Part shown: positions 129 to 35,137 of the stretch, one piece after another | Numbering within the stretch: position 1 is the first letter of the stretch | Layout of the letters: each line of letters opens with the position of its first letter | NCBI RefSeq assembly: GCF_022690685.1 | Contig: NZ_JALCYY010000035.1 | Location: 1 to 54,352 of the forward strand | Length of the DNA stretch: 54,352 nt | Direction: 5' to 3' | From: Anaeromyxobacter terrae | Lineage (GTDB): Bacteria > Myxococcota > Myxococcia > Myxococcales > Anaeromyxobacteraceae | The notes under the pieces: generated by a model | What the model saw: the letters and a program-made list of their open reading frames with translations, nothing else | What the model was told of the DNA's origin: nothing | Database searches by the model: none | Translations under genes and position numbers: made by a program

Positions 129-282
<154 letters not shown>

Positions 283-18332: not shown

Positions 18333-20558
18333 ATGGCGACGCCCGCCCTGAAGGCTCATCCCGACACCCTCCGCACCCTGCCGGGAGACGACGTGCGGCA
18401 GCTCATGTGGCGGTTCGCGGAGCGGTACGACCTGCAGATGCTGGTCCAGTCCACGCGCGGAGTGGCGCGCGGCCCGGTCGCGCGGCTCGTGGCGGAAGGC
18501 GGGCGGAACGAGCACGAGTGGACCGCGCGGAAGAATGAGCTCCTCGCCCACTACGACGCGTCGGGCATCACCGCGGCGTTCATGGAGCCGGAGGAGGGCG
18601 GCTTCATCGCCGGCCCGAAGAACCTCGCCCTCGCGCTCGCCGCGTTCGAGCTCGCCTGGGTCGACGCGGGCGCCGCGACCGGCGCCCTCGCCGGCTTCCT
18701 GGGCCTCTCGCCGATCCACGAGCGCGGCACGCCGGAGCAGGCGCGCCACTACATGAGCCTCGCCGCGCCGGCGAGGCCGGGCGAGGACCGCCGGCCCTGG
18801 CGCGCCGCGTTCGCGCTCACCGAGCCCATCCCGTACGTCGGCGTCGACACCGGCATGCTCTCCGGCAAGGTGAGCGTGGCGGAGTGGAAGGACGGCGAGG
18901 AGCCCGTCCTCCGGGTCGAGAAGCGCGGGCGGTTCATCACGAACATGGGGTTCGCGAACTTCGTCACCGCCGCGGTGGACACCGCCGATCCGCGCATCAA
19001 GTCCTCCTGCCTCGTCATCCTCGAGGAGACGGATCCAGGGACCTTCGACCGCGGCACGCCCACGAAGAAGCTCGTCCACCAGCTCTCCTCCACGAGCGAT
19101 CCCATCTTCAGCCTGCGCGTCCCCGCGAGCCGCATCGTGGGCGGGTACACCGTGAAGGACGGCGTCATCGTCCCCAACTTCGACCACTCCGAGGTGATCG
19201 AGGCGGTGTTCCGGCGCACGCGCGTGACCGTCGGCGTCATGACCTCCGCGAAGCTGCTCAGCGCGATCGAGCCGGTCATCCGCTACCAGCGCGGGCGGTT
19301 CCGCGGCGCCGAGCAGGCCGCGCCCGGCTCGGTGCGCTACGAGCTCGGCATCCAGCAGCGCGAGGACGCGCTGCACCGGCTCGTCGAGGTCTGGGCGGCG
19401 GGGGAGGCGGGCGCGTCGCTCGGCTTCGCGACGGCGCGGCTCTTCGACGAGCTCGATCCGCTCGAGAAGAAGAAGGACGCCGCGCTCGCGGCGCAGGGCG
19501 TCTCCGGGATGAAGGCCACCCTCAAGTGGCTGAAGGCGCTCGAGCAGAAGGGGCTCGAGCTGCTGGAGCTCGAGGCGCACCCGCGCGGCGAGAAGCAGGA
19601 GGCGCGCATCGCCGAGCTCCGCGCCGACGAGCTCGTCCGGTTCGCGCTCCTCGACGCGCAGGCGAACGTCCTCTGCCCCGCGACGAAGCTCTGGAACACG
19701 GGGGTCGGCGCGAGCGTGATGCGCGAGGCGGTCTCGCTCATGGGCGGCTACGGCATCACCGAGGACTGCCCCGGCTTCCTCGGGCAGAAGTGGATGGACG
19801 CCCAGCTCGAGGCCACGTACGAGGGGCCCGAGGCCGTCCAGCGCCGCCAGCTCTCGGTGACGATGGCGAACCCGCTGTTCCTCGCGCAGATGAAGGCGTG
19901 GGTCCGCGAGCTGCGCCACGTCTCGGGCGCGCACGCGGGCACGGGGGCCTGCGCGCTCGCGTCGGCGATGGAGCTGTGGCTCTGGACGTACCGGCACCTC
20001 GAGCGATCGACCGACGCGGACGGCGCGAGGCTCGTCCAGTCGCCGCGGCAGGGCGTGACGTTCAAGCTCGCCGACGCGCTCGGCTGGCTCATGGCCGCGC
20101 GCAGCCAGATCCTCGACGCGGTCGTGCTCGCCGAGGACGGCGCGCCGGTGCTCGGCGAGGCGCACGCGGGCACGGCCCGCTTCTTCGCGGACCTCTGCCA
20201 CGTCCAGGCGGCGCGCGCCGCGGGCGAGGTGGGGCGCATCTGCGCCGAGCTCGTCCACGGCTACAACCGTCACCCGTCCTGGGACGCGGAGGGGCGTGCG
20301 GCGTGCTGGTCGGCGAGCGACGCCGAGGCGCTCGAGGGGATCATCCCCGGCCTCGCGGGCTGCTCCGCCGACGAGATCGCCGAGGGCGGGCTCCCGGACA
20401 AGGAAGGTCCCTGCGCGTCCTGCCAGGGCATCAGCGACTTCCGGACGCTGCGCGTGAAGATCGACGGCTGCCTGACGGGCGCGATGCTCGCGAAGGACCG
20501 CGCGGCGGAGGCGCTCTCGAAGGTGATGATCCCCGAGGCGCTCGACTACCCGCAGTAG
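18333..20558 (+). CDS. Acyl-CoA dehydrogenase, long form with Cys-containing C-terminal extension
   Basis: FAD-dependent acyl-CoA dehydrogenase of 741 residues, far longer than the usual 380-600. The family core is visible, with the flavin/helical region ending in LMGGYGITEDCPGFLG and then ATYEGPEAVQRR. Glu497 in that YEGP corresponds to the catalytic base of the family's YEGT motif. Beyond it lie about 240 residues, and the last 70 carry Cys at a GC, a CASC pair and a DGC, a possible metal or disulphide site. It is the first gene of an operon with an ETF-quinone oxidoreductase-like protein and EtfB/EtfA, so electrons from acyl-CoA oxidation likely go to quinone. Substrate unknown. The ATG at 18333 follows GAGGAA. 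Confidence 0.85.
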   Translation: MATPALKAHPDTLRTLPGDDVRQLMWRFAERYDLQMLVQSTRGVARGPVARLVAEGGRNEHEWTARKNELLAHYDASGITAAFMEPEEGGFIAGPKNLALALAAFELAWVDAGAATGALAGFLGLSPIHERGTPEQARHYMSLAAPARPGEDRRPWRAAFALTEPIPYVGVDTGMLSGKVSVAEWKDGEEPVLRVEKRGRFITNMGFANFVTAAVDTADPRIKSSCLVILEETDPGTFDRGTPTKKLVHQLSSTSDPIFSLRVPASRIVGGYTVKDGVIVPNFDHSEVIEAVFRRTRVTVGVMTSAKLLSAIEPVIRYQRGRFRGAEQAAPGSVRYELGIQQREDALHRLVEVWAAGEAGASLGFATARLFDELDPLEKKKDAALAAQGVSGMKATLKWLKALEQKGLELLELEAHPRGEKQEARIAELRADELVRFALLDAQANVLCPATKLWNTGVGASVMREAVSLMGGYGITEDCPGFLGQKWMDAQLEATYEGPEAVQRRQLSVTMANPLFLAQMKAWVRELRHVSGAHAGTGACALASAMELWLWTYRHLERSTDADGARLVQSPRQGVTFKLADALGWLMAARSQILDAVVLAEDGAPVLGEAHAGTARFFADLCHVQAARAAGEVGRICAELVHGYNRHPSWDAEGRAACWSASDAEALEGIIPGLAGCSADEIAEGGLPDKEGPCASCQGISDFRTLRVKIDGCLTGAMLAKDRAAEALSKVMIPEALDYPQ

Positions 20559-20580
20559 CTTTCGCTCGCAGGAGACGCCC

Positions 20581-22443
20581 TTGGAGCCCCTCGGGACGAA
20601 CGAGCAGCCGGAGCGCCAGACGATGTCCGTGGACATCGCCTGCGTCGGCTTCGGGCCGGCGACGGCCGGCTTCCTCGCCACCCTGTCGCGCCGCCTCGCC
20701 GCGGCCGACCGTCCGCCGCTCGAGAGCGCCGCGGCGCCGGGCCTGCCGCTGCAGGTGGTCTGCTACGAGCGCGCCGACGACCTCGGCTTCGGCGTCTCGG
20801 GCGTCGTGACCCGCGCCCGCGGCCTGCGCGCCGCGTTCCCGGACCTCGACGCCTCGCAGATCCCCATGGCGGCGACGGTGAAGGACGAGCGCGTCCTCTA
20901 CCTCCTCGATCCTCTCGGTGCGAGCCGCCGCTCGGCCACGCTGCGCGCTGCGGACCGGACCCTGCGCGCGTTGCGCGGCGTGCTGCCGTTCGCCGACGAC
21001 GCGGTCGAGCTCCCCTGGACGCCCGAGTTCCTGCACAAGCACGACGGCCTCGTCCTCTCCATGGGCCAGCTCATGCAGTGGATGAGCGCGCAGGTGCTCG
21101 CGTCCGGCGCGGTGCAGCTCTGGCCGGGGACGCCCGTCGCCCAGGCGCTCGTCGAGGGCGGCAAGGTGCAGGGCGTCCGGCTCGTCGACCAGGGTGTCGA
21201 TCGCCAGGGCCGCCCCGACGCCGGGTACCTGCCGGGCATGGACGTCCGGGCCGCCCTCACGGTCGTCGGCGACGGGCCGGTCGGCGCGGTCGGGCGGCAG
21301 CTCGACGCGGAGCTGGGCATGCCCGCCGGGCACGCGCGGCGCGAGTGGGCGGTCGGCATGAAGTTCGTCGTCGACCTCCCGGAGGACACGCGCCTCGAGC
21401 CGGGCACCGTGCTCCACACGCTCGGGTTCCCGGAGCCGGAGATCTTCGGGTTCCTGTACGTCCACCCGGACCGTGTCGCGTCGGTCGGGATCTTCGTCCC
21501 GAGCTGGTTCGAGTCGCCGGCGCGCACGAGCTACCGGTACCTGCAGCACTACGTCCAGCACCCCGCGATCTGGCGGCACCTCGCGGGCGCGCGCCTCCGC
21601 TCCTGGGGCGCGAAGTCGCTCCTCGAGTCCGGACGCCGCGGCGAGCCCTTCCTCGCGGGCGATGGCTTCGCGCGGATCGGCGAGGGCTCCGGCTCGACGA
21701 ACGTGCTCACGTCCTCGGGCGTGGACGAGGCCTTCACGACCGGCGTCCAGCTCGCGGAGGGCGTCATCGCGCTCCTCGAGGCGGGGAGGCCGCTCACGAA
21801 GGAGGGGCTCGAGGAGGCCTACGTCGCCCGGCGCCGCGCGAGCTGGGTCGAGGCGGAGGCGCGCGTCGCGGAGAAGGCGCGCGACGGCTTCCAGCGCGGG
21901 GTCGTGCCCGGCCTCGTCGGGATGGTGCTCGCGGGGCTCACGCGCGGCAGGGTCGCGCTCGGGCACGAGCCGCCTCACCCGGCGGACGCGGTCGGGACGC
22001 TGGAGGCGTTCTACGCCGGCCGGATCCCGGCGGAGGAGATCGCGCGGCTGCGGGCGGAGTGCGAGGCGAGGGGCGTGCCGCTGCACGACGCGCTCATGGA
22101 TCGCGCGGGCTGGCCGGCCGTGCCGCTCGACGGGAAGCTCCTCGTGTCGCAGCAGGACGCGCTCCTCATGGGCGGCAAGGTCCAGGCGCCGGCGGGCTAC
22201 GCCGATCACGTCACGTTCCTGTCCGCCGAGCGGTGCCGCGCCTGCGGCAAGCGCGTGTGCGTCGAGATCTGCTCGGCCGAGGCGCTCCGGCCGGGCGCCG
22301 AGGGGGTCCCGAGCTTCGACCGCGAGAAGTGCGTCCACTGCGGCGCGTGCCTGTGGAGCTGCACCGGGCGCGTGGACGGCGGCGACGAGGTGAACCTCCA
22401 GCTCCGCGCCGGGACGGGCGGGCTTCACTCAGCGGAGAACTGA
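20581..22443 (+). CDS. ETF-quinone oxidoreductase-like flavoprotein with ferredoxin tail
   Basis: Flavoprotein of 620 residues. An N-terminal Rossmann dinucleotide motif (VGFGPATAGF) marks FAD binding. The body resembles FixC/geranylgeranyl-reductase-like oxidoreductases and shows a late FAD-binding GDGFARIGEGSGS segment. The C-terminal 80 residues hold two Cys groups, CRACGKRVCVEIC and CVHCGACLWSC, enough for one or two 4Fe-4S clusters; the second matches the ETF-QO cluster loop. It probably takes electrons from EtfAB and passes them to quinone. Start uncertain: TTG at 20581 has AGGAG six bases upstream; ATG at 20623 with a weaker GGAG would shorten it by 14 residues. It is 22 bases after the dehydrogenase. 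Confidence 0.82.
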   Translation: MEPLGTNEQPERQTMSVDIACVGFGPATAGFLATLSRRLAAADRPPLESAAAPGLPLQVVCYERADDLGFGVSGVVTRARGLRAAFPDLDASQIPMAATVKDERVLYLLDPLGASRRSATLRAADRTLRALRGVLPFADDAVELPWTPEFLHKHDGLVLSMGQLMQWMSAQVLASGAVQLWPGTPVAQALVEGGKVQGVRLVDQGVDRQGRPDAGYLPGMDVRAALTVVGDGPVGAVGRQLDAELGMPAGHARREWAVGMKFVVDLPEDTRLEPGTVLHTLGFPEPEIFGFLYVHPDRVASVGIFVPSWFESPARTSYRYLQHYVQHPAIWRHLAGARLRSWGAKSLLESGRRGEPFLAGDGFARIGEGSGSTNVLTSSGVDEAFTTGVQLAEGVIALLEAGRPLTKEGLEEAYVARRRASWVEAEARVAEKARDGFQRGVVPGLVGMVLAGLTRGRVALGHEPPHPADAVGTLEAFYAGRIPAEEIARLRAECEARGVPLHDALMDRAGWPAVPLDGKLLVSQQDALLMGGKVQAPAGYADHVTFLSAERCRACGKRVCVEICSAEALRPGAEGVPSFDREKCVHCGACLWSCTGRVDGGDEVNLQLRAGTGGLHSAEN

Positions 22444-22494
22444 TCGCCAACCCGCCCGCCGGCCTCGCCGGAGGGCGCGCCCTACGAGGAGCTC

Positions 22495-23307
22495 ATGAGC
22501 ACCGGATACCAGATCGTCGTCCTCGGGAGCGTCGTCCCCGACCCGCTCCAGACCCTCGAGCCCGCGCAGACACCGCAGGGCCCGGGCCTCAAGAACGAGC
22601 TCATGCTGCCGCACGTGCTCGACCCCTGGGCGGCCCACGCGCTGTACGAGGCGGCGAACCTCGCGGCGAGGACGCCGGGCTCGAAGGTGACGCTCGTCTC
22701 GCTCGGCCCGAAGGCGAAGCTCCAGCAGGTCATGATGGCGGTCGGCCAGAAGGTCCCGTTCGAGCTCGTCGCGCTCGACGGCCCCGCCGGCGGCTTCACG
22801 GATCCGCACGAGGTCGCGGCGAGGCTCGCGGAGACCGTGAAGGCGCTCCCCGGCCTCGATCGCTCCCGGCTGCTCCTGTTCGGCGGGTGGGAGTCCGCGT
22901 CGCGCGGTGCGGGCGTCACCCTCCAGCTCGTCGGCGAGCGGCTCGAGATCGCCGACCAGTTCCAGGGAGTCGACAGGCTCACGCCAGGCGAGGGCGGCTC
23001 GTTCGAGGTGCTCGAGCGCGTGGAGGGCGGGAAGCACCAGGTGTCGCGCTGCGCCGGCGCGCCCGCCGTGCTGGGCTGGGCGACCGGCGAGCTGGGCGAG
23101 CCGAAGAACAACCCGCAGATCGGCATGGCCAACATGCGCGGCGTCATGCCGGCCCTGCAGAAGGCCGCGCCCGCGCCGGTGGGCACGGGCGGGGTCGAGT
23201 TCCTCTCGGTCGCGGTGCCGAGGGCGCAGCGCGAGACGCGCATCGTGAAGGACATGAGCCCCGACGACGTCGCGCGCGAGCTCGTCGAGTGGATCGGCCA
23301 GGACTAG
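22495..23307 (+). CDS. etfB: Electron transfer flavoprotein subunit beta
   Basis: EtfB-type protein of 270 residues with the alpha/beta ETF fold: an IVVLGSVVPDP opening, an alternating helix-strand core (KVTLVSLGPKAKLQQVMMA), and a C-terminal part that normally clasps the alpha subunit. EtfB binds AMP and, with EtfA, a single transferable FAD. It follows the quinone oxidoreductase-like gene by 51 bases and precedes etfA by 17, an operon arrangement. The sequence is divergent from housekeeping EtfB, fitting a dedicated partner of the adjacent dehydrogenase. Confidence 0.88.
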   Translation: MSTGYQIVVLGSVVPDPLQTLEPAQTPQGPGLKNELMLPHVLDPWAAHALYEAANLAARTPGSKVTLVSLGPKAKLQQVMMAVGQKVPFELVALDGPAGGFTDPHEVAARLAETVKALPGLDRSRLLLFGGWESASRGAGVTLQLVGERLEIADQFQGVDRLTPGEGGSFEVLERVEGGKHQVSRCAGAPAVLGWATGELGEPKNNPQIGMANMRGVMPALQKAAPAPVGTGGVEFLSVAVPRAQRETRIVKDMSPDDVARELVEWIGQD

Positions 23308-23324
23308 CGCGAGGGATCCCGACC

Positions 23325-24344
23325 ATGGACACCGTCCTCCTCCTCACCCATACCGAGGCCGATGGCGGCCTCCCGCGCGCCGCGCTCGAGGCGCTCTCCG
23401 CGGCGCGCGCCGTCGGCGGGCCGCTCGTCGTCGGCCTGTTCGGCGGCTCCGTCGAAAGGGCCGTCGCCGCGCTCGGCGGCGCCGGCGCCACGAAGGTGCT
23501 CGCCGTCGAGGGACCCGCGTTCGCCGACCCGCGCTACGGCACCGACGCCGCGGCTGCCGCGGCGCTCGCGAAGGCCTCCGGCGCGAGCGTCGTCCTGGCG
23601 CCTGCGACGAGCCGCATGGCGCGCGTCGCGGCCGGGGTCGCGCAGCGGCTCGGCGGGCGCGTGGACACCCACGTGACCCAGGTCGCCGCCGACGGCGGCG
23701 TGGCCGTCACCCGCTGGTTCTACAAGCAGCGCATCGAGGCGAGGCTCCGGCGCAAGGAGCGCCCGTGGGTGCTGCTCGTCGATCCGGGCGCATATCCGCC
23801 GGCGAGCCTCGAGGGCGGCGCCGCCCCGGCGGTCGAGCGGCTCGCGCTCGCCGCCGACGGCCTGACGCGGACGGAGGTCCTGGGGCTCCGGGCGCCGTCG
23901 TCGGGTGAGCAGACGATCCGCCCGGACGCGAAGCTCCTCTTCGTCGCCGGCGCGGGCTGGACGAAGAAGCAGGCGTCCGGGAAGCCCGAGCCGGAGCGGG
24001 CCGAGCAGCTCATCCTCGGGCTGCTCCGGGCCGCCGGCGCCTCGCTCGGCTCGTCGAAGTCGCTCGTGGATCAGGCGGGGGAGGGGCAGAAGGTGTTCGA
24101 GTTCATGACGCACCTGAACCAGGTCGGCCAGACCGGCTCCACCCCTCGCCATCCGAAGGGGCTCGCGACCTGCTGCCACGGCGAGGAGCCGCACGTCGTC
24201 GGCTGGCGCTTCATCCGCGAGCGGCGCGCGGTGAACCTGGACGCGGGCTGCGGGTGGGCGCGCGGCAAGGCGGACGTGCTGTACGTGGCGGACGCGTTCG
24301 CGGTGATGGAGAAGGTGAACGCGCTCCTCGCCGAGAAGGGGTAG
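23325..24344 (+). CDS. etfA: Electron transfer flavoprotein subunit alpha (divergent)
   Basis: EtfA of 339 residues. Domain I is alpha/beta (LLLTHTEADGGLPRAALEAL). Domain II should bind FAD and shows a VGQTGSTPRHPKG segment in place of the usual VGQTG-x-VxPxLYIA stretch. The normal SGAIQH loop is replaced by CCHGEEPHVVGW, and the end (ADVLYVADAFAVMEKVNALL) matches the family's D-LF tail. The missing canonical loop means FAD contacts differ from textbook EtfA. It is the last gene of the four-gene electron-transfer operon. The ATG at 23325 lies 17 bases after etfB, preceded by GAGGGA. Confidence 0.85.
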   Translation: MDTVLLLTHTEADGGLPRAALEALSAARAVGGPLVVGLFGGSVERAVAALGGAGATKVLAVEGPAFADPRYGTDAAAAAALAKASGASVVLAPATSRMARVAAGVAQRLGGRVDTHVTQVAADGGVAVTRWFYKQRIEARLRRKERPWVLLVDPGAYPPASLEGGAAPAVERLALAADGLTRTEVLGLRAPSSGEQTIRPDAKLLFVAGAGWTKKQASGKPEPERAEQLILGLLRAAGASLGSSKSLVDQAGEGQKVFEFMTHLNQVGQTGSTPRHPKGLATCCHGEEPHVVGWRFIRERRAVNLDAGCGWARGKADVLYVADAFAVMEKVNALLAEKG

Positions 24345-24460
24345 CGCCCGCCGACCGTGGCCCGTCGGCCTCCGTCCGCCGCCAACCGAGCGCTCGCGTC
24401 CGGGCTCGCGGCCGGCAAGGCTTTGCCGCCACCGCCCGGACGGTGTATGGCTACGCCCGC

Positions 24461-25240
24461 ATGAAGACGCTCACCGAGCTCAGCGGATCCCTGATTCGAA
24501 CGGCGGCGGCCGCGGTCGCCCAGGCCAAGCGGTCGCTCCCGGCGGAGGAGAAGCCCGCCGCCCCCGTCGCCGCAGCGGTCGAGGCGCCGTCCCCGGTCGC
24601 CCCGGAGGGCGCCGCTGCCGCCGAGGCGTCCGGCGAGGCGTCGAGCGTCGCGCCCGACGCCGCGGAGCCCGCACCCGTCGAGGCGGCGGAGGCCGCGCCC
24701 CCGGCGCCGGCCGAGGCGCCGAAGCCGGCCGCCGAGGGAGAGAGCGAGGCGGTCAAGGCCGCGCTCGACGCCGCGGTCGCGACGGCCACGGGCCTCTCGG
24801 GCGATCGGCTCGCGATGCTGCGCGCCGCGGTCGAGGTGGTGGGGCGTCGCGCCGAGGACGTGCGGCTCGTCCGCGTGTTCGGCGCCGAGGAGCCGGTCCC
24901 GGGCGCGAAGACGAGCGGCGGCCACCAGTACCTCGTGGACTTCTTCCCGCAGAGCATGAAGCAGACCGTCAGCTCGCCCCGCGAGGAGCGCGGGGGCCGC
25001 GGTGGCCGTGGCGGGCGCGGTGGCCCCGGCGGCGGACGGGGAGGCGGCGGCGGTGGTCGCGGCGGTGGCGGCGGCGGCACCAAGGCCGGCGCGACGGGCG
25101 GCTTCTCGATGGACTCGCTCCGCGAGGATCGCAAGAACGAGCGCGGCGGCCGCGGGCGGCCGGGCGGCGGCGGCCGGAGGCCGGGCAGCGGCGGTGGCGG
25201 CGCCGGCGGCGGTCGTCCGGGCGGTGCCCCGAAGAAGTAG
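24461..25240 (+). CDS. Ala/Pro-rich protein with Arg-Gly-Gly-rich C-terminus
   Basis: Protein of 259 residues in three parts. Residues about 1-28 are a short amphipathic helix. Residues about 30-95 are an Ala/Pro/Glu-rich disordered linker. Residues about 98-165 form a compact predicted folded segment (LSGDRLAMLRAAVEVVGRRAEDVRLVRVF). The last 90 residues are Gly/Arg repeats (RGGRGG, GGGRGGGG) like eukaryotic RGG boxes, ending in GGAPKK. I recognise no family; RNA or nucleic-acid binding is suggested by composition only. It lies 29 bases before the RIO kinase gene on the same strand. The ATG at 24461 is chosen as the first Met with a non-random N-terminus. Confidence 0.6.
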   Translation: MKTLTELSGSLIRTAAAAVAQAKRSLPAEEKPAAPVAAAVEAPSPVAPEGAAAAEASGEASSVAPDAAEPAPVEAAEAAPPAPAEAPKPAAEGESEAVKAALDAAVATATGLSGDRLAMLRAAVEVVGRRAEDVRLVRVFGAEEPVPGAKTSGGHQYLVDFFPQSMKQTVSSPREERGGRGGRGGRGGPGGGRGGGGGGRGGGGGGTKAGATGGFSMDSLREDRKNERGGRGRPGGGGRRPGSGGGGAGGGRPGGAPKK

Positions 25241-25269
25241 CCTCGCGCAAGGACTCACCCGACCCGAGC

Positions 25270-26817
25270 ATGCACGATCCCCTCGCACCGCTCCTGGCGG
25301 ACGGCGTCATCGAAGAGGTCTGCGCGCGCCTCAAGAGCGGCAAGGAGGCGGACCTCTGGCTCGTCCGCCACGGCGGCGAGGTCGTCGCCGCGAAGGTCTA
25401 CAAGGCGCGCGAGGCGCGGAGCTTCCGGAACAACGCCGGCTACAAGGAAGGGCGCCAGGTCCGCGACTCGCGCATGCAGCGCGCGATGGACCGGGGCAGC
25501 CGCTTCGGGCAGGCCGCCGCCGAGGAGGCGTGGAAGGCGAAGGAGGCGGACGCGCTCCACGCGCTGCACGCCGCCGGCGTCCGTGTCCCCAGGCCGGTGA
25601 TGTTCTACGAGGGCGTGCTCCTCATGGAGCTCGTCGTCGATGCGAACGGCCACCCCGCGCCGCGCCTCGTGGACGCGCACGTCGCGCCGGAGGAGGCCGC
25701 GGCGCTCTACGCCGACCTGCGCAGCCAGATCGTCCGGATGCTCGGCTGCGACCTCATCCACGGCGATCTCTCGCCGTACAACATCCTCCTCGGCTGGAAC
25801 GGCCCGGTGGTGATCGACTTCCCCCAGGTGGTCGGCGCCGCGCACAACAGCCAGGCGGAGTCGTTCTTCCAGCGCGACCTCGAGAACGTTCGCCGCTTCT
25901 TCGCGGCCATCGATCCCGCGGTCCGCGACGCCTCCGGCGACGGCCGCGAGATCTGGCGCGCTTACGTCCGGCGCGAGCTCTCCCCGGACTTCGTCCCGAG
26001 CGGGCGGCCCCCGGAGCCGCCGCGACAGGGAGGCGAGGGGACCCGCGGCCAGGGCCACGGCCGCGGTCACGGAGAGCGTCACCCGCAGCGCTCGCCGGAG
26101 CAGAGCGCGCGGCGCGATCGCGGCTGGCAGGAGCGGCGCGAGCGGCCGCCGCAGACGGCGCAGCACGAGGCGCGCGCGCACGCGGAGCCGCGCGAGCGCC
26201 ATGACGCGCCCGGGGCGCATCCGCATCCGTCCGCGTCGCGCCCGGAAGGTCAGCACCAGTCCGGTCCGCGGCAGGCGTACCAGTCCGGTCCGCGGCAGGC
26301 ACAGCAGCCCGGTCCGCGGCAGGCGCAGCAGCCCGGTCCGCGGCAGGCGCACCAGTCCGGTCCGCGGCAGGCGCAGCAGCCCGGTCCGCGGCAGGCGCAG
26401 CAGCCTGGCCCGCGGCAGGCGCAGCAGCCCGGCCCGCGGCAGGCGCAGCAGCCCGGCCCGCGGCAGGCGCAGCAGCCCGGCCCGCGCCAGTCGCAGCAGT
26501 CGGGTCCGCGGCAGGCGCAGCAGTCCGGTCCACGGCAGGCACAGCAGTCCGGTCCACGGCAGGCACAGCAGTCGGGTCCGCGGCAGGCGCAGCAGTCGGG
26601 TCCGCGCCAGTCGCAGCAGCCCGGCCGCGGCGGCCCTGATCGTCGCCGCAACGCTCCGGCGCCGGAGGTGATCCGGGTGAGCCGGCCACTGCTCGGGCCC
26701 GGGGGTACGCCGGCGCCGACGCAGGGCAGGCCCGCCGGCGCTCCTCCCGCGCACGGCCCACCGCGCGCGGACGGGCCGCGACACCACGACCATCGCCGGC
26801 ACGGCCGGCGCGGTTAG
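25270..26817 (+). CDS. RIO-type serine/threonine kinase with repetitive C-terminal tail
   Basis: Protein of 515 residues. Residues about 1-240 form a RIO1/RIO-like kinase: Lys42 in VVAAKVYK, catalytic loop HGDLSPYNILL with Asp166, and metal-binding Asp183 in VVIDFPQ. RIO kinases lack the usual activation loop and in eukaryotes and archaea act in small-subunit ribosome maturation; in bacteria their target is mostly unknown. Residues about 245-515 are Arg/Gln/Pro/Gly-rich and disordered, including fifteen 8-residue repeats (328-447) of the form AQQ(P/S)GPRQ. It is preceded by an RGG-rich protein 29 bases away. A further Pro/Gly-rich end closes the protein. Confidence 0.85.
   Translation: MHDPLAPLLADGVIEEVCARLKSGKEADLWLVRHGGEVVAAKVYKAREARSFRNNAGYKEGRQVRDSRMQRAMDRGSRFGQAAAEEAWKAKEADALHALHAAGVRVPRPVMFYEGVLLMELVVDANGHPAPRLVDAHVAPEEAAALYADLRSQIVRMLGCDLIHGDLSPYNILLGWNGPVVIDFPQVVGAAHNSQAESFFQRDLENVRRFFAAIDPAVRDASGDGREIWRAYVRRELSPDFVPSGRPPEPPRQGGEGTRGQGHGRGHGERHPQRSPEQSARRDRGWQERRERPPQTAQHEARAHAEPRERHDAPGAHPHPSASRPEGQHQSGPRQAYQSGPRQAQQPGPRQAQQPGPRQAHQSGPRQAQQPGPRQAQQPGPRQAQQPGPRQAQQPGPRQAQQPGPRQSQQSGPRQAQQSGPRQAQQSGPRQAQQSGPRQAQQSGPRQSQQPGRGGPDRRRNAPAPEVIRVSRPLLGPGGTPAPTQGRPAGAPPAHGPPRADGPRHHDHRRHGRRG
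26251..26610 (+). repeat. In-frame 24-bp tandem repeats (15 units) within the RIO kinase tail
   Basis: Fifteen consecutive 24-base units, followed by a degenerate sixteenth, encode Q-x-S/P-G-P-R-Q-A octapeptides. Units differ mainly at third codon positions and at Ser/Pro, Ala/Ser, Gln/His and Gln/Tyr. The reading frame is preserved throughout, so this is a coding repeat that may vary in copy number between strains. Confidence 0.95.
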
Positions 26818-27290: not shown

Positions 27291-27992
27291 TCAGGCGCTC
27301 TCGACCCGGTCGCGCAGGCGGTAGCCGACGCCCGGCTCGGTGACGAGCAGGCGCGGCCGGGCGGGGTCCGCCTCGACCTTCTTGCGCAGCTCCGCCATGT
27401 GCACGCGGACGTAGTGCGCCTCCGTCGCGTTGGGCCCCCAGACCTCCCGCAGGATCTGACGGTGCGTGAGGACCCTGCCGGCGTGGCGCGCGAGCAGGGC
27501 GAGGAGCCGGTACTCGGTGGGCGTGAGCCGCACCTCCCGGCCCTCGACCGTCACCTCGCGCCGGGAGAGGTCCACGCGGAGCGGTCCCGTCTCGAGGACG
27601 ACCGGCTGCTCGGGGCTCGCCTGGGCGTGGCGCTGGGCGACGCGGAGCCTCGCCAGGAGCTCGTTCACCCCGAAGGGCTTCGTGAGGTAGTCGTCGGCGC
27701 CCGCGTCGAGCGCGTTCACCTTGTCCTCCTCGCGTCCGCGCGCGGAGAGGACGATGATCGGCGCCTTCGTCCACTCGCGCAGGCGCCGCGCCAGGTCCAC
27801 GCCGTCGCCGTCCGGGAGCGTCAGGTCGAGGAGGTAGATGTCCGGGTTGTGGCCCGTGGCGAGCTGCTCGGCCTCGCGCACCGACTCGGCCTCGAGGAGC
27901 CGGTAGCCGCGGGAGGTGAGGGCGGCGCGGAGGAACCGGCGCACCTGCGCCTCGTCGTCGACCACGAGCACGAGCGGTCCGGTCGCGGTCAT
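27291..27992 (-). CDS. kdpE: Potassium-responsive response regulator KdpE
   Basis: OmpR/PhoB-type regulator of 233 residues. The receiver has Asp12, Asp13, phosphoacceptor Asp56 and Lys105. The C-terminal winged helix begins near residue 130 and includes LTPTEYRLLALLARH and the recognition helix region HYVRVHMAELRKKVE. It is the partner of KdpD and activates kdp transcription under potassium limitation. It overlaps kdpD by four bases and is the last gene of the operon. In this arrangement kdpDE follow kdpFABC, unlike plasmid or split loci. A target site candidate is described at 35626-35664. Confidence 0.93.
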   Translation of the reverse strand: MTATGPLVLVVDDEAQVRRFLRAALTSRGYRLLEAESVREAEQLATGHNPDIYLLDLTLPDGDGVDLARRLREWTKAPIIVLSARGREEDKVNALDAGADDYLTKPFGVNELLARLRVAQRHAQASPEQPVVLETGPLRVDLSRREVTVEGREVRLTPTEYRLLALLARHAGRVLTHRQILREVWGPNATEAHYVRVHMAELRKKVEADPARPRLLVTEPGVGYRLRDRVESA

Positions 27993-30694
27993 GCGCCGCT
28001 GCCTCCCGCCGGCTCGGCGGGTCGCGGCCGATCGGCCGGCAGCGGCAGCGGCAGCGTGAGGCGGAAGACGGCGCCGCCTCCGGGCCGGTTCGCGGCGACG
28101 AGCCGGCCCCCGTGCGCCTGGGCGATGGCGCGGGCGATGGGCAGGCCCAGGCCGACGCCGCGGACGCCGGCGTGCGCGCCGCGGTGGAACCGGTCGAAGA
28201 TCCGCTCCTCCTCGCCTGCCGGGATGCCCGGGCCCCGGTCCGCCACGTCCACGACGAGGGTGCCCCCCTCGCGCCGCGCGAGGATCTCCAGCTCCGAGCC
28301 GGGCGGGGTGTACTTCGCGGCGTTCTCGAGGAGGTTCACGAAGAGCTGCTCGACGAGGACGGGGTCGAGGGAGACGAGCGGGAGGTCGTCCGGCAGCGAG
28401 GTCGCGACGCGCCTCCCCGCGAGCCGGCGCTCGAGCCGGGTGAGCGCCCCACCGACGACCTCGACGAGCGGCACCCACTCGCGCTTCGGCTCCACCGCGC
28501 CGGAGTCGAGCCGGGTCATGTCGAGCAGGTTCGCGACGAGCCTCTCGAGCCGCTCGGCCTCCTCGCAGATCGCGTCGGCGAGGTCCCGGCGCGTGGCGGG
28601 ATCGAGCGCCGGGTCGGCGCGCAGCGTGGAGGCGGCGCCCGTGATCACGGCGAGCGGCGTCCGGAGATCGTGCGACACCGCGGAGAGCAGCCCGCTGCGG
28701 AGCTGCTCGGTCTTCGCGCGGAGCTCGGCCTGGCGCGCCTCCGCGGCGAGCCGCACGCGATCGAGGGCGAGCGCCGCCTGCCGCCCGAGCGCCTCGAGCA
28801 GCGTGCGCTGCTCGGCCCCGAGCCCGCGCTCGCCCTCGGTCCGCAGGGCGAGCACGGCGAGGACGTCGCCCCACGCGCGGACGGGCGCGCAGCTCACGGC
28901 CTCGCCGGGGAGCGTGTCGGTCCCGCGCCCCGCGGCCTGACCGTGCTCCGCGACCCACTGCGCGACGGCGCGCTCGGAGGGGCTGAGCGTCGCGCCGCGC
29001 GGCGAAGCCGCCAGGGCGGCGAGGTCCTCGTCGCCGCGTACGCGCAGGAACACCACCTCCGCGTCGAACGCCTCCGCGACCGCCTTCACGCACACCGCCG
29101 CCACCCCCTCGTCGTCGAGGGCCGCCCCGAGCTCACGGCTGAACCCGTAGAGCGCCGAGGTCCGCCGCTCGCGCCCCATCGACGCCCGCTGTTGCTCGCG
29201 CAGGCGCAGCGTGAGGGTGCCGATCACGACGCTCACGCCGAGCATCATGACGAACGTGAGGAGATACCGCGCGTCGGACACGCCCAGCGTGAACGACGGC
29301 GGCACGAAGAAGTAGTCGTACGAGACCACCGCCAGCATCGCCGCCAGGATGGAGGCGCGGCGCCCGGTGGTCAGCGCCGCGATCATGACCCCGAGCAGGA
29401 ACAGCATCTCGACGTCGGGCACGCTGAGCAGCGCCCGGACGGCGGCGGCGACGGCCGTGGTCAGCGCGATGACGGCGGCCGCCCGCAGGTACTCCGCGCC
29501 GCGGGCGCGCCCTCTCCTGGGCACCGCCCTGTGCTCCTGGCCCTCCTCGACCCCGCCCGACAGCACGTTCACCTCGATGTCGCCGCTGCCCCGGATGATC
29601 TCGTCCACGAGGGAGCCGCGCAGGCGGTCGCGCCAGCGGGGATGGCGGGGCTTGCCGAGCACGATCCGCGTGACGTTCCGCCGGCGCGCGAAGTCGAGGA
29701 TCGCCTCCGGGACGCGCAGGCCCGTGAGCCGGATCACCTCGGCGCCGAGCGACTCGGCGAGGCGGAGGTGGGACTCGAGCCGCTCCCGGTCATCGTCGCC
29801 GAGCGGCGGCTGTCCGCTCGCCTGCACGGACGCGGCGACCCACGGCGCGCGCAGGCCCGCCGCGATCCGGCGCGCCGCGCGCACGAGGCGCGCCGAGTCG
29901 GGCGCGGGGCCGACGCACACGAGCACCCGCTCCGCGGTGGGCCACGGCACGTCCACGCCGTGCTCCGCCCGGTACGCGAGGACGTCGGAGTCCACGCGCT
30001 CCGCCATGCGGCGCAGGGCGAGCTCGCGGAGCGCGAGCAGGTTCCCGCGCTGGAAGAAGTGTTCGCGGGCTCGCTCCGCCTGCTCGGGCAGGTACACCTT
30101 CCCCTCGCGCAGGCGCTGCAGGAGCTCCTCCGGCGCGATGTCCACGATCTCCACCTCGTCCGCGCGCTCCAGGATCGAGTCGGGGACGGTCTCGCGCACC
30201 TGGATGTGCGTGATCTGCTCCACCACGTCGTTCAGGCTCTCGACGTGCTGGACGTTCAGGGTCGTGTAGACCTCGACGCCGGCCTCGAGCAGCTCGACCA
30301 CGTCCTGCCAGCGCTTCGGATGGCGCGAGCCGGGGGCGTTCGTGTGGGCGAGCTCGTCGAGGAGGAGGATGTGGGGACGTCGGGCGAGCGCGGCGTCGAG
30401 GTCGAACTCCTCGAGCACCCGGCCGCGATACGGCAGGGGCCGGCGCGGCAGCACCTCCAGCCCGAGCATCAGGCCCGCGGTGTCGTAGCGACCGTGCGTC
30501 TCGATCGCGCCGACCACCACGTCGACGCCCTCGGCCACGAGGTCGCGCGCGACCTGGAGCATCCGGTACGTCTTCCCCACCCCGGGCGCGAAGCCGAAGA
30601 AGATCTTGAAGCGGGTGCGCGCCTCGCGCTGGGCCTCGGCCGTCACGCGCGCGAGGAGCGCGTCCGGATCCGGCCGCCCCGGCTGCTGCGTCAT
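27989..30694 (-). CDS. kdpD: Sensor histidine kinase KdpD
   Basis: Protein of 901 residues. The N-terminal KdpD domain carries a Walker A (FAPGVGKT, Lys41) and a following Walker B-like LLLDELAHTNAPGSRH. A universal-stress-protein-like domain (about 245-365) precedes four transmembrane helices (about 395-500). A GAF-like segment leads to the histidine kinase core: His675 in SHDLRTPLA, N-box NLLENAAKY and a DRGPGI G1 box. It phosphorylates KdpE. The start at 30694 has GGAG at eight bases and leaves a 34-base gap to kdpC; an alternative at 30748 would overlap kdpC and lacks a ribosome site. Confidence 0.95.
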   Translation of the reverse strand: MTQQPGRPDPDALLARVTAEAQREARTRFKIFFGFAPGVGKTYRMLQVARDLVAEGVDVVVGAIETHGRYDTAGLMLGLEVLPRRPLPYRGRVLEEFDLDAALARRPHILLLDELAHTNAPGSRHPKRWQDVVELLEAGVEVYTTLNVQHVESLNDVVEQITHIQVRETVPDSILERADEVEIVDIAPEELLQRLREGKVYLPEQAERAREHFFQRGNLLALRELALRRMAERVDSDVLAYRAEHGVDVPWPTAERVLVCVGPAPDSARLVRAARRIAAGLRAPWVAASVQASGQPPLGDDDRERLESHLRLAESLGAEVIRLTGLRVPEAILDFARRRNVTRIVLGKPRHPRWRDRLRGSLVDEIIRGSGDIEVNVLSGGVEEGQEHRAVPRRGRARGAEYLRAAAVIALTTAVAAAVRALLSVPDVEMLFLLGVMIAALTTGRRASILAAMLAVVSYDYFFVPPSFTLGVSDARYLLTFVMMLGVSVVIGTLTLRLREQQRASMGRERRTSALYGFSRELGAALDDEGVAAVCVKAVAEAFDAEVVFLRVRGDEDLAALAASPRGATLSPSERAVAQWVAEHGQAAGRGTDTLPGEAVSCAPVRAWGDVLAVLALRTEGERGLGAEQRTLLEALGRQAALALDRVRLAAEARQAELRAKTEQLRSGLLSAVSHDLRTPLAVITGAASTLRADPALDPATRRDLADAICEEAERLERLVANLLDMTRLDSGAVEPKREWVPLVEVVGGALTRLERRLAGRRVATSLPDDLPLVSLDPVLVEQLFVNLLENAAKYTPPGSELEILARREGGTLVVDVADRGPGIPAGEEERIFDRFHRGAHAGVRGVGLGLPIARAIAQAHGGRLVAANRPGGGAVFRLTLPLPLPADRPRPAEPAGGSGA

Positions 30695-30728
30695 GGCCGC
30701 GCTCCAGTCACCTCCCGAAGCCAAGCCA

Positions 30729-31295
30729 TCACCGGTCGAGCCCGTCAAGCGCCAGGTTGAGCGCGAGGACGTTCACCCGCGGAGCCCCGAAGAGCCCGAG
30801 GAACGGCCGCTCGACGTGCGCCTCGACGAGCGCGCGCACCCGCTCGGGCGGCATGCCGCGCGCGCGCGCGACGCGGGGCACCTGGTAGAGCGCCGCCGCC
30901 GGCGACAGGTGCGGGTCGAGGCCGCTGCCGGACGCGGTCACGAGGTCCACCGGGATGGGCGCGTCGTTGCCGGGATCGGCCGCCCGGAGCACCTCGATCC
31001 GGGCGCGAACGGCGGCGGCGAGCGCCGGGCTCGAGGGACCGAGGTTCGATCCGGCCGACGCGCGGCCGTCGAACGGGACGGGCGTCGTCGCGGAGGGTCG
31101 TCCCCAGAAGTAGCGCGTCGAGGCGAAGGGCTGCCCCACGAGCGCCGAACCCGCGGCGCGATCGCCGGCGCTGACGACGCTGCCGTTCGCCTGCGCCGGG
31201 AACACGAGCTGCGCGATCCCGGTCACGACGGCCGGGTAGACCCCGCCGAGGAGGAGGGTGAACGCGGCGAGCAGCACGGCGACGGCGCGGATCAC
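30729..31295 (-). CDS. kdpC: K+-transporting ATPase subunit KdpC
   Basis: Single-pass membrane protein of 188 residues. One N-terminal helix (about 3-27) ends in a VYPAVVTGIAQLVFP segment typical of the family. The periplasmic part contains the conserved GSALVGQPF, YFWGRPSAT and SGSGLDPHLSP stretches. KdpC couples the KdpA channel-like subunit to the KdpB ATPase. The GTG start at 31295 has GAGGTG upstream and lies eight bases after kdpB. The usual length is about 190 residues, so the gene is intact. Confidence 0.95.
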   Translation of the reverse strand: MIRAVAVLLAAFTLLLGGVYPAVVTGIAQLVFPAQANGSVVSAGDRAAGSALVGQPFASTRYFWGRPSATTPVPFDGRASAGSNLGPSSPALAAAVRARIEVLRAADPGNDAPIPVDLVTASGSGLDPHLSPAAALYQVPRVARARGMPPERVRALVEAHVERPFLGLFGAPRVNVLALNLALDGLDR

Positions 31296-31303
31296 GGGCA
31301 CCT

Positions 31304-33388
31304 CTAGACCAGGCGGAGCGCGGCGAGCGCGAGGTCGATGAGCTTGATGCCCGCGAAGGGCAGGGCGAGGCCGCCCACTCCATAGAGCAGCGCGTGCCGC
31401 GCGAGGATGGTGCTCGCCGGGGCCGGGCGATAGGCGATCCCTCGGAGCGCCAGCGGGATGAGCGCGACGATCACGAGCGCGTTGAAGATCACCGCCGACA
31501 GGATGGCGCTCGCGGGCGAGTGGAGCCGCATGACGTCGAGCGCGCCGAGGACCGGATAGGTCGCGCCGAACGCCGCGGGGATGATGGCGAAGTACTTGGC
31601 CACGTCGTTCGCGATGCTGAAGGTCGTGAGCGCGCCGCGGGTCATGAGGAGCTGCTTCCCGATCTCCACGATCTGGATGAGCTTCGTGGGGTTCGAGTCT
31701 AGGTCGACCATGTTGCCGGCCTCCTTCGCCGCCTGCGTGCCGGTGTGCATGGCCACGGCGACGTCGGCCTGGGCGAGGGCGGGCGCGTCGTTCGTGCCGT
31801 CGCCGGTCATGGCCACGAGGTGGCCCTTCGCCTGCCACGCGCGGATGTGCGCGAGCTTCATCTCCGGCGTGGCCTCGGCGAGGAACTCGTCGACGCCGGC
31901 CTCGGCGGCGATCGAGGCTGCGGTGAGCGCGTTGTCGCCGGTGACCATGACGGTGCGGATCCCCATTCGCCGCAGCTCGGCGAACTTCTCCTTGATCCCG
32001 CCCTTCACGACGTCCTTCAGCTCGACGACGCCGAGCGCGCGGTCCCCCTCGGCGACCACGAGCGGGGTCGCCCCGCCGCGCGCCACGCCCTCCGCGATGA
32101 GGCGCACCTCGTCGGGGACCCGCCCCCCCTCGGCCGCGACGAAGCGCGCGATCGCGTCCTGCGCTCCCTTGCGCACGCGGCGGCCGCCGAGATCGACGCC
32201 GCTCATGCGCGTCTGGGCGGCGAACGGGACGAACACCGCGCCCGACTCGAGCGTCCGTCCGCGCAGGCCGTGCCGCTCCTTCGCGAGCACCACGATGCTG
32301 CGCCCCTCCGGCGTCTCGTCCGCCAGCGACGCGAGCTGCGCCGCGTCCGCGAGCGCGCGCTCGGTGACGCCGTCCGCGGGGAGGAACGCCGCGGCCTGCC
32401 GGTTCCCGAGCGTGATCGTCCCCGTCTTGTCGAGGAGGAGCACGTCGACGTCGCCGGCCGCCTCGACGGCGCGGCCCGACGTGGCGATCACGTTCGCCCG
32501 GATCATCCGGTCCATCCCGGCGATCCCGATCGCGGACAGCAGGGCGCCGATCGTCGTGGGGATGAGGCACACGAGGAGCGCGACGAGGACGGTGAGCCCC
32601 ACCGGCGCGCCCGCGCCGGCCGCGCGGACGGCGTGGACGGAGAACGGGAGCAGCGTGGCGGTCGCGAGGAGGAACACCAGGGTCAGCGCGGCGAGCAGGA
32701 TGTCGAGCGCGATCTCGTTGGGAGTCTTCTGGCGCTTCGCGCCCTCCACGAGCCCGATCATCCGGTCCAGGAAGGACTGGCCCGGCTCGGCGGTGATGCG
32801 GACCACGAGCCAGTCCGAGAGGACGCGCGTGCCCCCCGTGACGGCGCTCCGGTCCCCGCCGCTCTCGCGGATGACGGGGGCGCTCTCGCCGGTGATGGCA
32901 CTCTCGTCCACCGAGGCGATCCCCTCGACCACCTCGCCGTCGCCAGGCACGATCTGGCCGGCCTCGATCCAGACCACGTCGCCCCGGCGCAGCCGCGCGG
33001 CGGGGACGTCCTCCCGCGGCGCGTCGCGGGAGGGCGCCGAGAGCCGCGTCGCGACCACCTCGCGGCGGGCGCGGCGGAGCGTGTCCGCCTGGGCCTTCCC
33101 GCGCCCCTCCGCGACCGCCTCGGCGAAGTTCGCGAACAGCACCGTGAACCAGAGCCAGGCCGCGACGGCGAGGATGAAGCCCGCGGGCGCGTCGCCCCGC
33201 CCGGTCACGACCGCGTGCAGGAAGAGCGCGGTCGTGAAGGCGCTCCCGACCTCCACCGTGAACATCACCGGGTTGCGGACCATGAGGCGCGGGTCGAGCT
33301 TCCGCAGCGCGTCGAGGGTGGCGGTCCGGACGACGGCGCCGGGGAGGAGCGGCTGGGCGTGCGCGGAGGGGTGGGCGAGGGCGTCCAT
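31304..33388 (-). CDS. kdpB: K+-transporting P-type ATPase subunit KdpB
   Basis: P-type ATPase of 694 residues, full family length. The phosphorylated residue is Asp320 in [10 protein letters not shown]. Other motifs are TGES (actuator; in EITGESAPV), a [10 protein letters not shown] hinge motif and SVDESAITG. The transmembrane part is as expected for a P1A ATPase. It hydrolyses ATP to drive K+ passed from KdpA. kdpA lies three bases upstream and kdpC eight bases downstream, so translation is probably coupled. No missing catalytic residue was seen. Confidence 0.97.
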
Positions 33389-33391
33389 GGC

Positions 33392-35137
33392 TCACCTTGC
33401 GTGGAGCTGGAGGTGCTCGACGACCGGCCCGAGCGCGAGCGCGGGCAGGAACGTGAGGGCGCCCACGAGGAGGACGGTCGCCACGAGGAGGCCTGCGAAC
33501 AGCGGACCGTGGGTGGGGAGGGTCCCCGCGCTCGGGGGGGCGGCGCGCTTCCGCGCGAGCCCGCCCGCGATGGCGAGGACCGGGACCAGCACGCCGTAGC
33601 GCCCCACGAGCATCGCGACGTTCGTCGCGCGCCTCCAGAACGGGCCGTCCGCCGTCAGGCCTCCGAAGGCGGAGCCGTTGTTGTTCGCCGTCGAGGAGAA
33701 GGCGTAGAGGATCTCGCTGAACCCGTGCGGCCCGGGGTTCCCGGCCGCCGCCGCGGCGGCGGGCACGAGACAGGCGAGCGCGGTTCCGCCGAGGACCACC
33801 GCGGACGGGAGGAGGATGGCGACGCTCGCCAGCTTGATCTCTCGCGCCTCGATCTTCTTGCCCAGGTACTCGGGGGTGCGGCCGACCATGAGCCCGGAGA
33901 CGAAGACCGCCACGATGACGAACAGGAGCATGCCGTAGAGCCCGGAGCCGACGCCGCCGAACACGATCTCGCCGAGCTGCATGAGCCACATGGGCCACAG
34001 GCCGCCGAGCGGGGTCAGGCTGTCGTGCTGCGCGTCGACCGAGCCGTTCGACGCGGCCGTCGTGGCCGCCGCCCAGATCCCCGCGTCCACCGGTCCGAGG
34101 CGCGCCTCCTTGCCCTCCATGTTCCCGCCCGCCTGGAGCGGCCCGGGCCGCTGGTCCACCCCGAGCGCCGCGAGGGCCGGGTTTCCGGCCTGCTCGGCCG
34201 CGACCGTCGCGATCGTGAGCGGGACGAGGATCGCGAGCATCGCGGCGTACACGGTCCAGCCCTGCCGGCGGTCCCCGACCCATCCGCCGAAGGTGAAGCA
34301 CAGCGCCGCCGGGACGAGGAGGATGGCGAGCGCCTCGGCGAGGTTCGTGAGCGGCGTCGGGTTCTCGTAGGGGTGCGCGGAGTTCGCGGCGTAGTACCCG
34401 CCCCCGTTCGTCCCGAGCTGCTTGATGGCCACCTGCGACGCGACCGGGCCGACCGGCACCACCTGCTCGGTCACGGGCCGTCCGCTCGCGTCGCGCGCCG
34501 GCTCGCGGAGCGGCCAGCGTCCCTCGCCACCGAACGACTGGACCACCCCCAGCCCGGCGAGCAGCAGCGCGAGGGCCATCGAGAGCGGCAGCAGCACGTG
34601 GAGCGTGCCCCGCGTCAGGTCCACCCAGAAGCTGCCGAGCGCGCCCTTCGAGCGTTGCCCGAGCCCGCGTGCGAGCGCGGCGAGCACCGCCAGGCCGGTC
34701 GCCGCGGAGAGGAAGTTCTGGACGGCGAGCCCCGCCATCTGGACGAGCGGGCTCAGCGTGGACTCTCCGGCGTAGGCCTGCCAGTCGGTGTTCGTGACGA
34801 AGCTCACCGCGGTGTTGATCGCGACGCCGCCCGGGACGGCGGCGAGCCGCCCCGGGTTGAGCGGCAGGGCCGGCTGGAGCCGCTGGAGCGCGTACAGCAG
34901 CAGGAGCCCCGCGGCGTTGAAGACCAGCACGGACGCCGCGTAGCGGCGCCAGCTCATCTCCTCCGCGGGGTCCACGCCGGCGACCCGGTAGAGCGCGCGC
35001 TCGAGGGGCCCGAGCACGCGTCCCACGAGCGGCGCCTCGCCGGCCAGCGCCCGGGCGATGAAGCCACCCAGCGGGACGGCGAGCGCGGTGAGCGCCGCGA
35101 AGAAGACGGCGATCTCGGCGTACGCCGCCGCGGTCAC
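33392..35137 (-). CDS. kdpA: K+-transporting ATPase subunit KdpA
   Basis: Channel-like membrane subunit of 581 residues with the four MPM-type pore segments: VTNTDWQAYAGE, GTNGGGYYAANSAHP, SSTANNNGSAFGG and a fourth near the C-terminal helices. These form the K+ selectivity path. The GTG start at 35137 overlaps the stop of kdpF by four bases, which both fixes the start and confirms KdpF. KdpA selects K+ from outside and hands it to KdpB. The length is normal for the family. Confidence 0.96.
   Translation of the reverse strand: MTAAAYAEIAVFFAALTALAVPLGGFIARALAGEAPLVGRVLGPLERALYRVAGVDPAEEMSWRRYAASVLVFNAAGLLLLYALQRLQPALPLNPGRLAAVPGGVAINTAVSFVTNTDWQAYAGESTLSPLVQMAGLAVQNFLSAATGLAVLAALARGLGQRSKGALGSFWVDLTRGTLHVLLPLSMALALLLAGLGVVQSFGGEGRWPLREPARDASGRPVTEQVVPVGPVASQVAIKQLGTNGGGYYAANSAHPYENPTPLTNLAEALAILLVPAALCFTFGGWVGDRRQGWTVYAAMLAILVPLTIATVAAEQAGNPALAALGVDQRPGPLQAGGNMEGKEARLGPVDAGIWAAATTAASNGSVDAQHDSLTPLGGLWPMWLMQLGEIVFGGVGSGLYGMLLFVIVAVFVSGLMVGRTPEYLGKKIEAREIKLASVAILLPSAVVLGGTALACLVPAAAAAAGNPGPHGFSEILYAFSSTANNNGSAFGGLTADGPFWRRATNVAMLVGRYGVLVPVLAIAGGLARKRAAPPSAGTLPTHGPLFAGLLVATVLLVGALTFLPALALGPVVEHLQLHAR

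Follow-up and report, generated by a model that had tools for sequence, protein, structure and literature searches.

The window, which is the whole stretch of 54,352 nucleotides that was analyzed, contains two adjacent genes on the + strand that encode an RGG-tailed protein and a RIO kinase and are separated by an intergenic gap of 29 nt (Table 1). Both open reading frames lie where a preliminary description had placed them, and what it had said of each gene was borne out: the Gly/Arg tail of the first contains seven RGG triplets, including a head-to-tail run of four (an RGG-motif protein being defined by at least three clustered triplets), and the second encodes a clear RIO domain followed by a tail with exactly 15 (S/P)GPRQ octapeptides. 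Both genes are considered real on the basis of their homologues, the purifying selection acting on them and their codon structure.

Directly upstream (18333-24344) are genes for acyl-CoA dehydrogenase-like and FAD/ferredoxin-like proteins, as read from the sequence, and then two ETF subunits identified by Pfam; A. soli alone shares this neighborhood. Genes resembling kdpE-kdpD and kdpCBA (27291-35137, also from sequence reading only) are convergent with the RIO gene, and a hexanucleotide tandem array (GGTCGG, 25.8 copies, 92% matches) is located near the start of the window (129-282).

Table 1. Features of the RGG-RIO locus (positions in the window).
Feature	Position	Strand	Details
Conserved promoter-like block	24421..24460	+	CTTTGCCG, a spacer of about 17-18 nt and GTGTATGGCTAC; ATG follows after 6-9 nt
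RGG protein, 259 aa	24461..25240	+	Strand-helix N-terminus, variable Ala/Pro linker, folded core, RGG tail
Conserved N-terminal element MKTLTELSG...	24461..24541	+	Predicted strand 3-8, helix 9-25; pLDDT 90-94
Conserved folded core, about residues 93-168	24737..24964	+	Helix-helix-strand-hairpin; pLDDT about 92-95
First RGG stretch	24983..25079	+	Sequence; tail dN/dS 0.05-0.19
GGFSMDSLREDRKNER, invariant motif within the Gly/Arg tail	25097..25144	+	Alignment, 22 sequences
PA4780-like RIO1 kinase, 515 aa	25270..26817	+	NF041645 1.5e-87, 293 bits; PF01163 2e-37
RIO kinase domain, residues 1-245	25270..26004	+	GKEA, AAKVYK, HGDLSPYN, IDFPQ; alignment to human RIO1
24-bp tandem array, 15 octapeptides (Q/H/Y)Q(S/P)GPRQ(A/S)	26253..26631	+	15.8 copies, 91% matches
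PEVIRVSR, conserved short motif near the RIO tail C-terminus	26662..26685	+	P.V.[RYH]V.[RK] pattern

The RGG-tailed protein family

The RGG protein is a member of a previously undescribed Myxococcota family, in which a small alpha/beta head is joined to a selected RGG tail with a fixed FSM(D/E)S-DR helix motif. No family for it was found in Pfam, NCBIfam or PHROGs, and no member was present in the plasmid collection. Homologues were identified in 34 of 195 Myxococcota genomes, representing at least six families, and a scan of GTDB contigs returned only Myxococcota-type genomes, although more distant relatives may have been missed because the scan was seeded with two short motifs. Members from other classes, while distant, have kept the N-terminus, the linker, the core and the motif-bearing tail. 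A second, shorter copy that does not have the full tail was observed in one genome (G011, contig C3, 172978-173364).

In the family alignment, columns M1, T3-E6, S8 and G9 of the N-terminal element were invariant, the core aligned around VRLVRVFG...QYLVD, and the linker was variable, being either acidic or Ala/Pro. The tail motif took the form FSM(D/E)S...DR (G-x-FSM(D/E)S-x4-DR type), with G213, F215-M217, D223 and R224 of the window protein invariant in the 22 sequences. Confidence in the AlphaFold model was high for the N-terminus and core (pLDDT 90-95) and low for the linker and most of the tail. The dN/dS of the core was 0.035 relative to the closest relative, and between Anaeromyxobacter relatives that of the tail was 0.05-0.19 versus about 0.5 for the linker; by these ratios the tail is under purifying selection and the linker is relaxed. 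Five DNA matches to (RGG)3 were found in the genome, and the sole run in a plausible coding frame is that of the RGG gene, the frames at the other three places looking non-coding; the number of (RGG)2 matches (251 versus 93 in the control) was uninformative.

Foldseek searches with the head produced no credible PDB or viral fold match. The best PDB-sequence profile match, WAVE1 (E 0.009, profile positions 159-211), was treated as compositional, and a suspected likeness to the Jag_N/KhpB domain was dropped as it had no Pfam support. A DNA- or nucleoid-directed action in place of one on RNA, in which the head would bind DNA like a winged helix and the basic tails would bind it too, is in our judgment highly improbable. 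Very weak fold hints point in that direction (among them matches to a Rok DNA-binding domain at Z 2.4 and, at Z 2.2-2.9, to chains of Pol III/TFIIIC), as does the position of the RGG gene in another Myxococcota family, where it and a B12-dependent (class II) ribonucleotide reductase gene, identified from sequence, are divergently oriented at all seven loci compared (L124 8101-12598 and its equivalents in L125, L127, L129 and L141-L143). However, such Z values do not rise above noise, and the order of strand and helix in the head is unlike that of a standard winged helix.

The RIO kinase and its basic tail

By sequence, the kinase carries an intact RIO1-type catalytic domain. Its catalytic, metal and ATP residues (H164-S168, N171, D183, Q186 and K42) were invariant in 35 sequences, and its score of 129 bits (2e-37) passed the gathering cut-off of 22 bits for the RIO superfamily (PF01163). 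The AlphaFold model had a pLDDT of > 90 across most of the domain, and its best match in Foldseek was human RIO1 on a late pre-40S particle. Against the PA4780 family profile (NF041645) the kinase scored 293.3 bits, below the curated cut-off of 350, which was passed in only seven of the 195 Myxococcota genomes. It was likewise placed outside the clade (100/99, starred in the tree) formed by the proteobacterial and the cut-off-passing Myxococcota sequences, with the deep rooting of that tree unsure because one outgroup branch is very long.

In the 54 Myxococcota RIO kinases examined, the tails were all 83-603 aa in length with a net charge of +14 to +32; six proteobacterial tails were 35-44 aa, with a net charge of -13 to 0. 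The dN/dS of the tail (0.33-0.62) indicates fast drift. In place of regular octapeptides, the closest relative carries at the same position a Q/P/G/R tail that is irregular but similarly long, and as judged from this comparison the 15 octapeptides are a recent lineage-specific expansion. Tails of different lineages have undergone independent tandem expansions of unrelated units, including HAQGNQPRPQ, GGPRSNEPRASNG and PERGQPQGGDRR (e.g. L128_4, L135_7 and L110_5). Near the tail end, a P-x-V-x-(R/Y/H)-V-x-(R/K) motif was identified in 36 of the 54 Myxococcota tails versus a mean of 0.02 after shuffling, a count that overstates independence since the sequences are related. MAFFT aligned this motif across at least four families, with the remainder of the tail unalignable, and it was absent from the PA4780-clade Myxococcota sequences. 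In an AlphaFold model of the kinase built with 35 homologues, nothing indicated that the motif docks onto the kinase (motif pLDDT about 39-41).

Distribution, transcription and relationship of the two genes

The preliminary description had suggested that the pair may form an RNA- or ribosome-related module and had named co-occurrence across Myxococcota as a test. Within Anaeromyxobacter a real operon is supported, but co-occurrence fails at the phylum level: among the 195 genomes sampled, 24 had both genes, 10 the RGG gene only, 93 the RIO gene only and 68 neither (Fisher p = 0.18), and the two genes are thus distributed independently. RIO was present in all 17 RGG-positive genomes of Anaeromyxobacteraceae and missing in 7 of the 11 RGG-positive genomes of another family (f7). 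Single absences are weak evidence since some genomes are incomplete; one RGG-only genome was rated 100% complete. Adjacency was observed in only five genomes, all Anaeromyxobacter, such that co-occurrence with linkage did not extend across genera, and in A. oryzae (G006) both genes are present about 416 kb apart. The neighbors of the RIO gene differ from genus to genus. The two genes are real but do not form a phylum-wide module, and as they are mostly apart in related bacteria the pair is not a general two-part system.

These data bear on whether the two proteins are a dedicated kinase and substrate, the kinase phosphorylating the RGG protein (for instance at the Ser of FSMDS) and so switching its RNA binding or condensation. 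The tandem operon in five genomes, the conserved Ser in FSM(D/E)S and the presence of RIO in every RGG-positive Anaeromyxobacteraceae genome would all fit such a relationship. However, ten genomes have the RGG protein without a detectable RIO, and several of these that were checked keep the FSM motif; moreover, the RGG gene is missing from most RIO genomes and adjacency is limited to one genus. Since the motifs of head and tail are conserved where RIO is absent, it is doubtful that the RGG protein is mainly a kinase substrate. We consider this explanation unlikely, and a strict kinase-substrate pair is disfavored by the persistence of the RGG family and its motif in genomes without RIO.

The two genes are 7-29 nt apart in the five linked genomes, which show three flanking arrangements. 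Upstream of the RGG gene in Anaeromyxobacteraceae, the alignment revealed a conserved CTT..CG followed by (G)TGTATGG(C/A)T.CG that ends just before the ATG. This block does not appear to be coding, given that its spacing to the ATG varies out of frame, and it probably specifies a leaderless mRNA; a scan for the sigma-70 consensus found nothing within it. The GTG in GTGTATGG was rejected as an upstream start, the frame not being kept in relatives. GTGTATGGCTAC, PEVIRVxR and GFSM-DR each occurred once in the genome, pointing to neither a common regulon nor a second carrier. In nine of ten cases, unlinked RIO genes of Anaeromyxobacteraceae had TTGACC about 37-55 nt upstream, and none of the five linked RIO genes had it within 150 nt. 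The short gap, the retention of the pair in three flanking contexts and the kinase without a TTGACC promoter argue for a true operon in Anaeromyxobacter, in which the two genes are probably read as one transcript. The simplest reading is loss of the kinase's own promoter once its gene had come to lie downstream of the RGG gene, or else the two events may have occurred in the opposite order, the tree being weakly resolved.

Alternatively, the adjacency could be neutral or due to chance, with a transcript that came to be shared after a rearrangement, no functional relation, and tails that arose by drift in a high-GC genome. The independent distribution of the two genes, the different genus-level neighbors of RIO everywhere, the RIO tail dN/dS of up to 0.6 and the independent repeat expansions are consistent with this possibility. 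We nevertheless regard it as rather doubtful, as the pair has stayed together while its flanks changed (three contexts) and kinase genes in the linked position have no promoter of their own. In addition, conservation of the RGG tail and of the two linear motifs implies that the tails are not mere drift.

On balance, we lean slightly toward the view that the two genes evolve independently in Myxococcota, use a common promoter in Anaeromyxobacter alone and have RNA or ribonucleoprotein roles. In such a scheme the RGG tail would bind RNA or ribonucleoprotein and the head or FSM motif would dock a partner, while the kinase, driven by ATP, would work like Rio1 in association with RNP or the ribosome, its basic tail holding it close to RNA; co-transcription would merely coordinate the dosage of both proteins. 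The RNA binding, condensate formation and ribosome-related function that the preliminary description suggested for the tailed proteins are plausible from composition and family. Against an RNA reading, fold searches found no recognizable RNA-binding fold in the RGG head, and basic low-complexity tails can bind DNA or acidic proteins too. A more elaborate proposal is in our estimate quite unlikely: a Myxococcota-specific protein of RNA or ribosome granules, with a novel head and an RGG-FSM-RGG tail, would work together with a long-tailed bacterial RIO1 kinase in dormancy or the assembly of ribosomes, the two being the bacterial equivalent of the Rio1 pathway and having become an operon in Anaeromyxobacter.

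In eukaryotes and archaea, Rio1 acts in 40S/30S maturation, and the RIO relatives there are essential ribosome-assembly factors. To our knowledge bacterial RIO kinases have hardly been studied, and the literature searched established no ribosomal role for them. The long basic tails of Myxococcota RIO kinases with their conserved end motif offer a concrete handle on whether bacterial RIO kinases act on ribosomes or RNA, and the undescribed RGG-tailed family with its fixed in-tail motif a handle on whether bacterial RGG proteins act on either. The operon that joins them appears real and is modestly interesting.

Comparison with known systems

The window RGG protein resembles RGG/RG-tailed RNA-binding proteins in having clustered RGG triplets in a disordered tail. 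It differs from them in that its head is no known RNA-binding domain, its tail holds an invariant helical FSM(D/E)S-DR motif and its family was found in Myxococcota only in the present searches. The kinase aligns with the PA4780 family over the whole RIO domain and is about 43-50% identical to proteobacterial relatives, but its tail is 270 aa and basic versus about 40 aa and mostly acidic in that family. With RIO1 (human RIOK1 and Archaeoglobus Rio1) it shares the GKEA loop, the catalytic HGDLSxYN, the metal-binding IDxxQ, the RDxxNVxxFF ending and the fold, while representing a bacterial branch with about 25-28% identity and a different tail.
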